Assembly: GCA_026984045.1 (NCBI GenBank)
Contig: JALSSV010000080.1
Coordinates: 1 to 38,475, forward strand
From: Chromatiales bacterium
GTDB taxonomy: Bacteria; Pseudomonadota; Gammaproteobacteria; UBA6429; Thiohalophilaceae
Reading direction: 5' to 3'
DNA: 38,475 bases
Shown piece after piece: positions 4,295 to 21,847 of this stretch (position 1 is the first letter of the stretch; every line of letters begins with the position of its first letter). The notes beneath the pieces are model-generated. The model saw only the letters and a program-made list of their open reading frames with translations. It was not told the origin of the DNA and did not search any database. The position numbers and the translations under genes were made by a program.

Positions 4295-4383
4295 CACGGC
4301 GGGCGCACCACGGCCCGGGGATCGGCTCTCGCCCCGTGCCTGTTGCGCGAAGGCCCGGGTGCGGATGCCGGCCTGCGGCATCC

Positions 4384-4564
4384 GTCTCCGGCAGGTCTTC
4401 GGACTCAGGGGCGGGCCGGAAACCGGCTGGCCTCGGGCGGCGACTTCCCGTCCTTGCGGACAGTGTCATGGTGCGCCCTCGTTCCCCAATACCGCTGCGC
4501 GTCAGTCCCGGATTCTCACCGGGTTCCCTTTTGGCGACCCCATATCTGGGTTCGCACCGGAGAC
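4384..4564 (-). promoter_or_regulatory. Cobalamin (B12) riboswitch upstream of nrdA
   Basis: Read on the minus strand, the element opens with GTCTCCGG (4564-4557) and closes with CCGGAGAC (4391-4384), a perfect 8-bp P1 stem. Between them are the conserved blocks of the family in order: GGGAA followed by CCGGTGAGAATCCGGG, GACTGACGCGCAGCGG, a CACTGTC segment, GGGAAGTCGCC, and the B12 box AGTCCGAAGACCTGCC just before P1. A further perfect hairpin (GGATGCCG/CGGCATCC) follows at 4382-4362. The downstream gene is nrdA, 150 bases away on the same strand. Cobalamin riboswitches before class Ia nrd genes are known in Streptomyces, where a B12-dependent class II enzyme takes over when B12 is present. 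Confidence 0.93.
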
Positions 4565-4567
4565 AGG

Positions 4568-4600
4568 GCACAAGATACTGTGCTTTTTCGTGAATGGCAA
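4568..4600 (-). promoter_or_regulatory. nrdAB promoter overlapped by an NrdR-like box
   Basis: On the minus strand, TTGCCA (4600-4595), a 17-base spacer and TATCTT (4577-4572) form a good sigma-70 promoter. Its start point would fall at about 4565, the first base of the riboswitch. The -10 is embedded in GCACAGTATCTTGTGC (4583-4568), which matches 12 of 16 positions of the NrdR consensus ACACAATATATTGTGT. A much weaker half-conserved copy lies 32 bp upstream (4615-4600, ACA...TGT ends only). Confidence 0.65.
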
Positions 4601-18758: not shown

Positions 18759-19181
18759 TCAGCCGGGGCGGACCACCGCCAGGATCACGATGGCGAACAG
18801 GAACAGCACCGGGATTTCGTTGAACACCCGGTAGAAGACGGGGGAGCGGGCATTGCGCCCGGCGGCAAACTCGCGCAGCAGGTGCCCGCAGTAGAAGTGA
18901 TAGCCCATGAGCAGGCCCACCAGCACCAGTTTGGCATGCAGCCAGCCCTGCTGGCGGAACCAGTCCAGACCGTAGGCGGCGATCAGGGCGATCCCGAAGC
19001 CGGCCGTCAGCCACATGATGGGGGTCACGAAGCGGTAGAGCTTGCGTTCCATCACTGCCAGGGTCTGGCGGGTGGGGTCGTCCTCGCTCATGGCGTGGTA
19101 GACGAACAGGCGGGGCAGGTAGAACAGCCCGGCGAACCAGCTCACCATGAAGACGATGTGCAGGGCCTTGAGCCAGAGCAT
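18759..19181 (-). CDS. hemJ: HemJ-type protoporphyrinogen IX oxidase
   Basis: A 140-residue membrane protein with four hydrophobic segments. The family start MLWLKALHIVFMVSWFAGL is present, with the conserved H8, then RLFVYHA, the central TAGFGIAL helix and LHAKLVLVGLLMGYH. HemJ oxidises protoporphyrinogen IX in the inner membrane in organisms lacking HemY/HemG. GAGGAGG lies 5 bases before the ATG. It follows the CLC gene by 16 bases on the same strand. The 206-base gap after it contains the Fur-boxed promoter and no clear terminator. Confidence 0.92.
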   Translation of the reverse strand: MLWLKALHIVFMVSWFAGLFYLPRLFVYHAMSEDDPTRQTLAVMERKLYRFVTPIMWLTAGFGIALIAAYGLDWFRQQGWLHAKLVLVGLLMGYHFYCGHLLREFAAGRNARSPVFYRVFNEIPVLFLFAIVILAVVRPG

Positions 19182-19197: not shown

Positions 19198-20511
19198 TCA
19201 GCCGGGTTGCCGCCGCAGGTAGGCCTCGGCCAGGGCCCGGTAGATGGGGCGCGGGCAGACCAGGTGTGAAATCCCCTGGGCGATGAAGGCCGTGGCCATC
19301 AGAGGCAGCAACATGTGGGAATTGTCGGTCATCTCCATGACGATCACGAAGGCGGTGATGGGGGTCTGCACCACCCCGGTGAAATAGCCCACCATGCCCA
19401 GCAACACGATGGCGCCGAAGGGGATGGCCGGGAACAGCCCGGCCAGATCCGCACCCAGGCCGGCGCCCACCGAGAGGGAGGGGGCGAAGATGCCGCCGGG
19501 GATGCCGCTCAAATAGGAGATGCTGGTGGCCAGCAGCTTGAGCAGGGGATAGGCCGCATTGGCTTCCTGCCCCGTTTCGAGCAGGTGCCGGGCTTCGTCA
19601 TAGCCGGTACCATAGGTCATGCCGCCCGAGAGATAGCCGATGCCGCTGAGCAGCAGGCCGCAACCGAAGGCCAGCAGCACGGGATGCCGGCGCGCCAGCG
19701 GGGCGATGTGCCGGGTTCCCTCGATGAGCGAGGTGGCGAACAGGCCGCCCAGCAGCCCGCCGATGACCCCGCACAAGGGCACCGCCAGCCAGGCGAGGGG
19801 CGAGAGGGGCAGGGCCGCGCTGGTGGAGCCGAAATAGGTGTAGCTGCCGAGGATCGCCAGGGCCGTGAGACCGGCCAGCACCACGCTCACCATCAGGGTA
19901 CCGGTGGTGCGATGCTCGTAGGACTGGCTCATCTCCTCGATGGCGAACAGCACCCCGGCCAGCGGGGTGTTGAAGGCCGCGGCGATGCCGGCCGCGCCAC
20001 CGGCCAGGATCAGCGAGCGGTTCATGTCCTTGCCGCGGAAGGGGGCGATGCGCCGCAGGGCGTGCATGATGGCGGCGCCCACGTGCACCGTCGGGCCCTC
20101 GCGGCCGATGGAAGCGCCACTGGCCAGGCCCAGGCTGGTCAGCAGGATCTTGCCGAAAGCCACCTTCAGCGACAGTACCCGGCTCCGCACCTCGTGGCTG
20201 GGGACCGAGATGGCGGCGATGGCCTGGGGAATGCCGCTGCCCTCGGTGCCGGTGAAGACCTTGCGGGTCAGCCAGGCGATGGCCGCCAGGGCCAGCGGAG
20301 TGAGGGCATAGGCCAGCCAGGGCGCCTGGGCATGCAGGGCACGGAAGCGTTCGTCCGCAAACCGGGCCAGCAGGGCGAAGGCCGCTGCCAGCGCACCCAC
20401 GGCCAGGGCGCCGCCCCAGAACACCAGTCGCAGTTGCCAGGAGCGGCGCGAGAACAGGCGGCGATGGGTGCGGCGGAGGTGGCGGCGGTACATGGCGCGC
20501 AAGTGTAGCAT
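19198..20511 (-). CDS. CLC-family chloride transporter, probably a Cl-/H+ antiporter
   Basis: A 437-residue inner-membrane protein with about ten hydrophobic helices. The three chloride-filter motifs are present: GSGIPQ (S92), GREGPT (gating glutamate E138) and GIPGGIFAP. The internal proton glutamate is also retained: E193 in AIEEM lies 55 residues after E138, exactly as E203 follows E148 in E. coli ClcA. Keeping both glutamates favours antiport over channel activity. The start at 20511 was chosen for GGGAGGAG upstream; further upstream the sequence is non-coding AT-rich DNA. It is cotranscribed with hemJ. Confidence 0.92.
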   Translation of the reverse strand: MLHLRAMYRRHLRRTHRRLFSRRSWQLRLVFWGGALAVGALAAAFALLARFADERFRALHAQAPWLAYALTPLALAAIAWLTRKVFTGTEGSGIPQAIAAISVPSHEVRSRVLSLKVAFGKILLTSLGLASGASIGREGPTVHVGAAIMHALRRIAPFRGKDMNRSLILAGGAAGIAAAFNTPLAGVLFAIEEMSQSYEHRTTGTLMVSVVLAGLTALAILGSYTYFGSTSAALPLSPLAWLAVPLCGVIGGLLGGLFATSLIEGTRHIAPLARRHPVLLAFGCGLLLSGIGYLSGGMTYGTGYDEARHLLETGQEANAAYPLLKLLATSISYLSGIPGGIFAPSLSVGAGLGADLAGLFPAIPFGAIVLLGMVGYFTGVVQTPITAFVIVMEMTDNSHMLLPLMATAFIAQGISHLVCPRPIYRALAEAYLRRQPG

Positions 20512-20570: not shown

Positions 20571-20599
20571 TTGACCCGACCCGGCCATCCCGGTAATTT
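20571..20599 (+). promoter_or_regulatory. Sigma-70 promoter of a candidate small RNA
   Basis: TTGACC (20571-20576), exactly 17 bases, then TAATTT (20594-20599). It lies in the 304-base gap between the divergent CLC and argC genes and points toward an intrinsic terminator 70 bases further on, not directly at argC. The start point would be about 20606. Confidence 0.65.
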
Positions 20600-20605
20600 C
20601 GATTC

Positions 20606-20690
20606 TGCGCAGGGGGTAACCATCTGCCAACCACCACAACAACAAGCATAACGACAACTTTCGAGACAAGCGGCTGCGGCCGCTTTTTTC
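20606..20690 (+). ncRNA. Candidate Hfq-binding small RNA, undescribed
   Basis: The predicted transcript is about 85 bases, running from the promoter at 20571-20599 to a terminator at 20668-20689. A weak 5' stem (GCAG...CTGC) is followed by a CA-rich, apparently unpaired stretch with repeated AAC/AAG triplets (ACAACAACAAG, ATAACGACAAC), which fits A-R-N binding to the distal face of Hfq. The U-rich terminator tail fits the proximal face. There is no ATG in the transcript, so a leader peptide is unlikely. I cannot match it to a named sRNA family. It could instead be an attenuated leader of argC, whose start is 126 bases beyond. Confidence 0.55.
20668..20689 (+). terminator. Intrinsic terminator of the small RNA candidate
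   Basis: AAGCGGC (20668-20674), loop TGCG, GCCGCTT (20679-20685), with a run of six T's at 20684-20689. Orientation is plus only; no T-run exists on the other strand. No coding gene lies upstream on this strand for several kilobases, so it must end a non-coding transcript. Confidence 0.8.
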
Positions 20691-20815
20691 TTGCCGCGAG
20701 CACGCCCGGCGGCCGGTTTCGTGAACCCGGTTGAAAACTCCCGCCTTTCCGATTGTTTCGCCAGCATTTATCATGTGCCGTTCAGGCATGACTTCAGCAG
20801 GACTGGGATGCGCAC

Positions 20816-21847
20816 ATGATTCAGGTGGCGATCGTCGGCGGGACCGGCTACACGGGGGTGGAACTCTTGCGGCTGCTGGCCGCTCATCCGGGCGTGATCC
20901 TGCGCGCCATTACGTCCCGTTCCGAGGCCGGCACGCCGGTTGCCGACATGTTTCCCAACCTGCGCGGGCACGTGGATCTGTGTTTCAGCGATCCCGACGA
21001 AGCGGATCTGAGCGCCTGCGACGCGGTGTTCTTCGCCACCCCCAACGGGGTGGCCATGCAGCATGCGCCGGCGCTGGTCGAGGCCGGGGTCAGGGTCATC
21101 GATCTGGCGGCGGATTTCCGGCTGCGGGATCCGGCCGAATGGGAACGCTGGTACGGCCTGCCCCACGCCTGTCCCGGGCTGCTTGCCGAGGCGGTCTACG
21201 GCCTGCCCGAGGTCAACCGCGAGGCCATCCGCCAGGCGCGGGTGATCGCCAACCCCGGCTGCTATCCCACCGCCGTGCAGCTGGCCTTCCTGCCGCTGCT
21301 GGAAAAGGGGCTGGTCCGGCCGCAGGGCCTGGTGGCCGACTGCAAGTCGGGCGTCTCCGGGGCCGGGCGCAAGGCCAGCGTGACCACCCTGCTGGGCGAG
21401 GCGAGCGAGAACTTCCAGGCCTACGCCGTGGCCGGCCACCGGCATCTGCCGGAGATCCGCCAGGGGCTGCGGGTGGCCACCGATCAGCCGGTGGAACTGA
21501 CCTTCGTGCCTCATCTGACGCCCATGATCCGAGGCATCCATGCCACCTGCTATGCCACTCTCGAAGCTGGGGCAGAAGACCTGCAGGCCTTGTATGAACA
21601 GCGCTATGCCGACGAACCCTTCGTGGACGTGCTGCCGGCCGGCAGCCACCCCCAGACCCGCAGCGTGCGTGGCGCCAACACCTGCCGGATCGCCGTGCAC
21701 CGGCCCCAGGAGGGTGACACGGTGGTGGTGCTCTCGGTGATCGACAACCTGGTCAAGGGTGCCGCGGGCCAGGCGGTGCAGAACCTGAACATCCTGTTCG
21801 GATTCGACGAGCATGCCGGCATCGACGGCATCGCCCTGCTGCCCTGA
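20816..21847 (+). CDS. argC: N-acetyl-gamma-glutamyl-phosphate reductase
   Basis: NADPH-dependent third step of arginine biosynthesis, cytoplasmic. 343 residues. The Rossmann start [18 protein letters not shown], the catalytic cysteine C149 in [18 protein letters not shown], and HLTPMIRGI are all visible. The start at 20816 begins directly with the Rossmann strand; the ribosome binding site is weak (TGGGATG). Upstream, TATCAT (20769-20774) is a possible -10, but the -35 is poor. No ARG box was recognised. It is followed after 4 bases by the DUF6776 gene, suggesting an operon. Confidence 0.95.

Follow-up and report, generated by a model that had tools for sequence, protein, structure and literature searches.

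A probable Hfq-associated small RNA gene between clc and argC, with relatives across Gammaproteobacteria

The window analysed here, a stretch of 38,475 nucleotides from a Chromatiales bacterium, carries a candidate small RNA (sRNA) gene on its plus strand, between clc and argC. According to the gene list and comparison with relatives, argC lies downstream (20816-21847, plus strand), clc is the divergent upstream neighbour (19198-20493, minus strand), and a hemJ-like gene (18759-19181, minus strand) is the third member of the conserved neighbourhood; the names argC and clc follow the original prediction and our assumption from the encoded proteins, and hemJ is presumed from its protein. The predicted RNA is about 83 bases long (20606-20689, plus strand), as judged from sequence, fold and the covariance model described below. 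Because clc is transcribed on the minus strand, away from the RNA gene, and argC starts only at 20816, about 126 bases 3' of the T run, no coding gene explains the terminator that closes the RNA, as had been argued originally. A promoter-like TTGGCA-17-CAGAAT directed toward clc (20602-20630, minus strand) overlaps the 5' part of the RNA gene. Elsewhere in the window are a cobalamin riboswitch (Rfam RF00174, 105 bits; 4373-4576, minus strand) and the start of a 16S rRNA gene interrupted by the contig end (38147-38475, plus strand).

The putative sigma70-type promoter (20571-20599, plus strand) comprises TTGACC (20571-20576), a 17-base spacer and TAATTT (20594-20599), a pattern that recurs in relatives. 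It had been described as near-ideal, which is fair for the -35 box and the spacing but overstated for the whole, since the -10 box retains just TAnnnT (3 of 6 positions of TATAAT) and the promoter matches 8 of 12 consensus positions; a consensus scan of the window with a threshold of 9 of 12 missed it. CTTGAC-17-TAnnnT was present in loci that had been found without that pattern (G012, G023, G002, G019, G009, L021, L022, L089 and L101), and among the loci inspected for it no clear promoter was seen in L112, L113 and four loci of genus g14. No general inverted repeat was detected between the promoter boxes of 29 members (mean z 0.13). In three loci of family f67 (L155, L156 and L157), the stretch separating the -35 box from the -10 box contains TGTGAACTGTGTCACA, with one base differing in L156 and in L157. 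We take this element to be a CRP-like palindrome, and it suggests catabolite control of the sRNA in that family.

The position of the -10 box places the 5' end of the transcript at about 20606. All further parts are on the plus strand. A stem-loop predicted by folding occupies 20606-20629, at the place where a stem covaries in family f120. It is followed by a run of AAC/AAG triplets (20638-20658), with AACAACAAG at 20638-20646 and then CAT, AAC, GAC and AAC up to 20658, a candidate ARN site for the distal face of Hfq. The RNA would end in an intrinsic terminator, AAGCGGC-TGCG-GCCGCTT plus six T (20668-20689), whose stem of seven pairs spans 20668-20685 and whose T run spans 20684-20689; both the terminator scan and the fold recovered it. 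The triplet run and the clean terminator with six T are thus located as originally predicted, and Hfq binding by the triplets is plausible from their sequence. Folding of 20606-20691 gave a z of -2.95, with 3 of 200 shuffles equally good, and trimming to 82 bases gave -1.84, with 11 of 200 shuffles equally good. No ATG, GTG or TTG occurs between about 20606 and the last base of the T run, which bears out the earlier description of a transcribed stretch lacking start codons. A small protein gene or leader peptide at this locus is therefore scarcely credible: although L120 contains a 16-codon frame from GTG, in 17 of the 34 members in the ORF and distance set, no ORF has both start and stop within the RNA, the other 17 reach 16 amino acids at most, and no open frame is shared.

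Simple sequence comparison recovered little of this locus. A blastn search of 141 bases against 40 relatives returned short matches only; the best (22 exact bases in L010) was rejected because by eye it appeared to lie in a coding region, and a match in L011 (G035) was, according to later pattern searches, the terminator of a true member. Of 80 named argC loci, all screened by script and 31 also inspected by eye, 4 were recognised as carrying the sRNA. The same order of parts upstream of argC was found in nine loci (L021, L022, L089, L096, L099, L101, L109, L112 and L113), with clc upstream in eight of them, and the sRNA was absent from seven inspected clc-argC gaps (L030, L100, L104, L106, L108, L110 and L115). 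The corresponding gap in L098 (G010) is a doubtful eighth, with GGCAGGGGACAAACGACAA after a TTGATT promoter-like box and a poor terminator, and is possibly a decayed copy of the sRNA. In L108 (G020), a repeated AATAAATGGGGGTCAGAGACG element occupies the position that the sRNA holds in other gaps.

Our claims on relatives draw on three alignments (A6, A8 and A9), of which A6, containing the window and the loci of five relatives, was used to build the covariance model R1. At E < 1e-3, R1 matched 13 of the 40 f1 genomes (six loci that had trained the model and seven that had not), in genera g1, g2 (two), g3, g9, g12 (two), g14 (four) and g16 (two); at E up to 0.1 it matched 26 of the 40, and only the 13 below 1e-3 were counted. 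The same 40 genomes made up the order-level search. No sRNA was found by R1 at E < 1e-3 in the other 27 f1 genomes, including the other species of the window's genus, whose genome is fragmented and in which argC was likewise not found. Of the 13 matched loci, 12 adjoin clc; in G009 the contig lacks clc and the RNA gene lies beside hemJ and a gene that is presumably thioredoxin-like. The inner five pairs of the terminator are invariant in all 13 f1 members. A GGGGnGUAAyC-like block occurs near the RNA 5' end in g1, g2, g9 and g12 (except G023 of g12) and is absent from g3, g14 and g16.

Searches blind to genomic location were made with a pattern joining CTTGAC-18-TAnnnT, AAYAAYAA and GCYTTTT at set distances. 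Across 369 genomes of the class, the full pattern matched 13 places, and the promoter and terminator parts without AAY matched 18, including the window's genome once; the reversed controls of both gave none. The union amounts to 21 distinct places. Within 1.5 kb, 19 of them have a gene of the same block as in the window: argC in 15, clc in two more (G391 and G296) and hemJ in a further two (G106 and G341). The linked places span 12 families (f1, f12, f36, f44, f67, f68, f72, f120, f121, f134, f140 and f147), and in G322 the distance to argC is 838 bases. In G369 and G327, no argC, clc or hemJ lies within 1.5 kb; the G369 place (L169/L179) has the same promoter, hairpin and terminator, and is either a relocated copy or another RNA. 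A slightly looser pattern applied to a sample of 398 genomes from across the phylum matched the window's genome and two other places, neither of them linked to argC, clc or hemJ, and its reversed control matched one; these unlinked matches, like that of the control, are pattern background.

These results bear on whether the locus could be a chance pairing of promoter and terminator without function, its conservation only mirroring that of the argC region. The weak -10 box and the many relatives that lack the sRNA would fit such an accident, but the reversed controls (0 of 369), the clustering of 19 of the 21 places in this one neighbourhood and the covariation of the 5' hairpin in f120 make it very improbable. 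Since relatives in this neighbourhood share the layout and the reversed controls were empty across the class, the window locus is beyond what chance would be expected to produce.

The triplet run is not significant in the window by itself (p = 0.078). Across an AAN-blind set of 18 places, AAN runs exceeded those of dinucleotide shuffles (Fisher p = 2.5e-9, related sequences included), with a run of one triplet or fewer in three places (G369, G159 and G327) and of only two in G082, G391 and G296; outside this set, L101 has a run of one. Runs were mostly of three to five triplets across members, and the tract was unpaired in most member folds and partly paired in L156 and L158.

Evidence for a structured RNA came from family f120, in which 21 of 53 genomes matched and argC was downstream in 20 of the 21; in f67, all three genomes matched. 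Alignment A9 comprised 19 of the 21 f120 matches (G369 and G427 were omitted as too different). In these 19 sequences, 6 of the 10 pairs of the 5' stem changed on both sides, and 17 compensated cells were counted, where shuffles gave 6.5 ± 1.9 and 0 of 500 reached the observed number, the 19 sequences being related and the shuffles ignoring kinship; slid versions of the stem gave at most six compensated cells. A DNA palindrome could also covary, but U-G pairs were retained at one stem pair in six sequences, and RNA is therefore favoured. The terminator stem neither supports nor opposes covariation, as it is nearly invariant.

The 5' sequence drifts even inside families. In f120, conservation was 0.85 for the AAY tract, 0.80-0.87 for the pre-terminator segment and 0.80-0.83 for the stem arms, so retention of the tract and the segment, at about the level of the stem arms, is suggestive only. 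The stretch that separates the AAY tract from the terminator can be conserved, as in a pair of f44 sequences that are identical over their last 37 bases. The original prediction had looked to homologues for a conserved seed: the layout is kept, and a stem covaries in f120, but among the members compared no unpaired block was conserved across families, and thus no common seed is visible.

The proximity of argC raises the alternative of an attenuator or riboswitch-like leader, in which transcription from the sRNA promoter would be either stopped at the terminator or passed into argC. In the 34 members measured, argC begins 55-364 bases 3' of the terminator, and in L172 the pairing of upstream RNA with a terminator arm (-10.1) nearly equals the terminator itself (-10.8). 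However, this competing pairing averaged -4.4 kcal/mol against -10.4 kcal/mol for the terminator and was the weaker of the two in all 22 members of the antiterminator set. (Neither this set nor that of the 34 argC-linked loci included L168, where 838 bases separate the RNA gene from argC.) Furthermore, argC appears to have a promoter of its own, with TATCAT at 20769-20774 (plus strand) as its probable -10 box: TATNAT is missing from 11 of 38 gaps between terminator and argC, but it occurs in the other 27, where shuffles gave a mean of 11.6 and a maximum of 19. This count leaves out four loci that did not fit the expression (L101, L132, L126 and L127) and three duplicates (L181, L198 and L150). 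In L168 and L185 the TATNAT lies far from argC.

A controlled gene directly downstream in every member would be expected of a leader, and ten exceptions were found. In G019 the RNA gene is followed by a convergent gene, in G052 (the only g14 genome inspected downstream) by what is presumably ilvD, and in G009 by what we take to be a DUF5666-like gene; the loci of G053, G054 and G014 are without argC (in G014 only 188 bases of contig remain), and in G391, G296, G106 and G341 argC is not within 1.5 kb. Given these exceptions, the frequency of TATNAT and the weakness of the antiterminator pairing, an argC attenuator is unlikely. Pairing between the sRNA and the argC translation start was not detected in the 34 members either (mean z -0.22).

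No Rfam family reached its gathering score at the sRNA locus in the window or in 19 member loci, consistent with the initial view of an uncatalogued sRNA between clc and argC, and relatives share both place and layout. The closest likeness in architecture was to ChiX of Escherichia coli (84 bases; presumably named sroB in Rfam), which by side-by-side inspection has the same order and size of parts: a 5' hairpin, then AUAAUAAUAAA, a further segment and a terminator. The ChiX seed lies between its A-rich tract and its terminator. ChiX differs in genomic place (ybaK-ybaP), and its model was not listed in a permissive Rfam search of five member loci. The claim of an Hfq class II layout without a matching sequence accordingly stands for the order of the parts. 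PhrS of Pseudomonas has a similar terminator, GCGnCUUCGGnCGC; it was rejected, as the best RF01673 score (23.3 of 37 bits, in L155) was sub-threshold and driven mainly by the terminator, and the match skipped most of the 86 model positions. We found no description of this sRNA in the open-licence literature, and an earlier account may exist elsewhere; the wording on clc, argC, small RNA and Hfq in PMC3110155 carries other senses.

CrcZ and CrcY of Pseudomonas and Azotobacter share A-rich AAnAAnAA Hfq motifs, an intergenic position and a terminator with the RNA studied here. The CrcZ model RF01675 (398 positions) exceeded its cut-off in none of 17 member genomes and gave no match at this locus; sub-threshold matches occurred in 9 of the 17 and in 7 of 14 control genomes. 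This likeness suggests another possible role, that of an Hfq decoy whose AAY tract would compete with ARN-bearing messages for Hfq, as CrcZ does, without base pairing. Such a role would be consistent with an architecture and a tract that outlast the 5' sequence, with the lack of a common seed and with the failure of CrcZ to reach its cut-off in the member genomes. It is nevertheless rather doubtful: members mostly have runs of three to five triplets, whereas Azotobacter CrcZ has six A-rich motifs, along with a predicted RpoN promoter, according to PMC5429807, and a lineage can preserve the bases lying between tract and terminator, as in the f44 pair, a conservation that a decoy would not need. 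An extension of this idea, to which we give little weight, would be an ancient small RNA, present in 12 or more families of Gammaproteobacteria, that occupies Hfq generally and sets its availability, keeping its Hfq-binding architecture while its 5' part drifts, with lineage-specific regulators at its promoter (such as the CRP-like site in f67) and with CrcZ not detected.

The reading best supported by these comparisons is an approximately 83-base small RNA of the Hfq class II type with a ChiX-like order of parts, and we are fairly confident that it is a stand-alone gene with its own promoter, acting in trans in an Hfq-dependent manner. From sequence and conservation, the sigma70-type promoter would start the transcript and its own terminator would end it, with the 5' stem-loop, which covaries in one family, capping the RNA. 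An (ARN)n tract enriched across members, an intrinsic terminator with a U tail and an Hfq gene in the host are all present, the last in 25 of the 26 member genomes searched for it, G000 included (the exception, G023, is 77% complete). In the class II mode, as outlined in PMC9037510, ARN repeats bind the distal face and the U tail the proximal face, and the RNA studied here may bind Hfq in this way. Its targets would then be messages from other loci, with base pairing as the most likely means; the pairing bases would lie in the 5' region or in the lineage-specific segment that separates the triplets from the terminator.

Since relatives keep the place and the layout in many little-studied bacteria, the locus is probably a real, uncatalogued regulator working with Hfq. 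Most knowledge of trans-acting small RNAs comes from a handful of model genera, and the candidate described here keeps its neighbourhood in at least 12 families of Gammaproteobacteria. It offers a covariation-backed RNA family for annotation that lies outside Rfam 15, and a ChiX-like RNA of this kind would make targets and Hfq dependence testable outside the enterobacteria.
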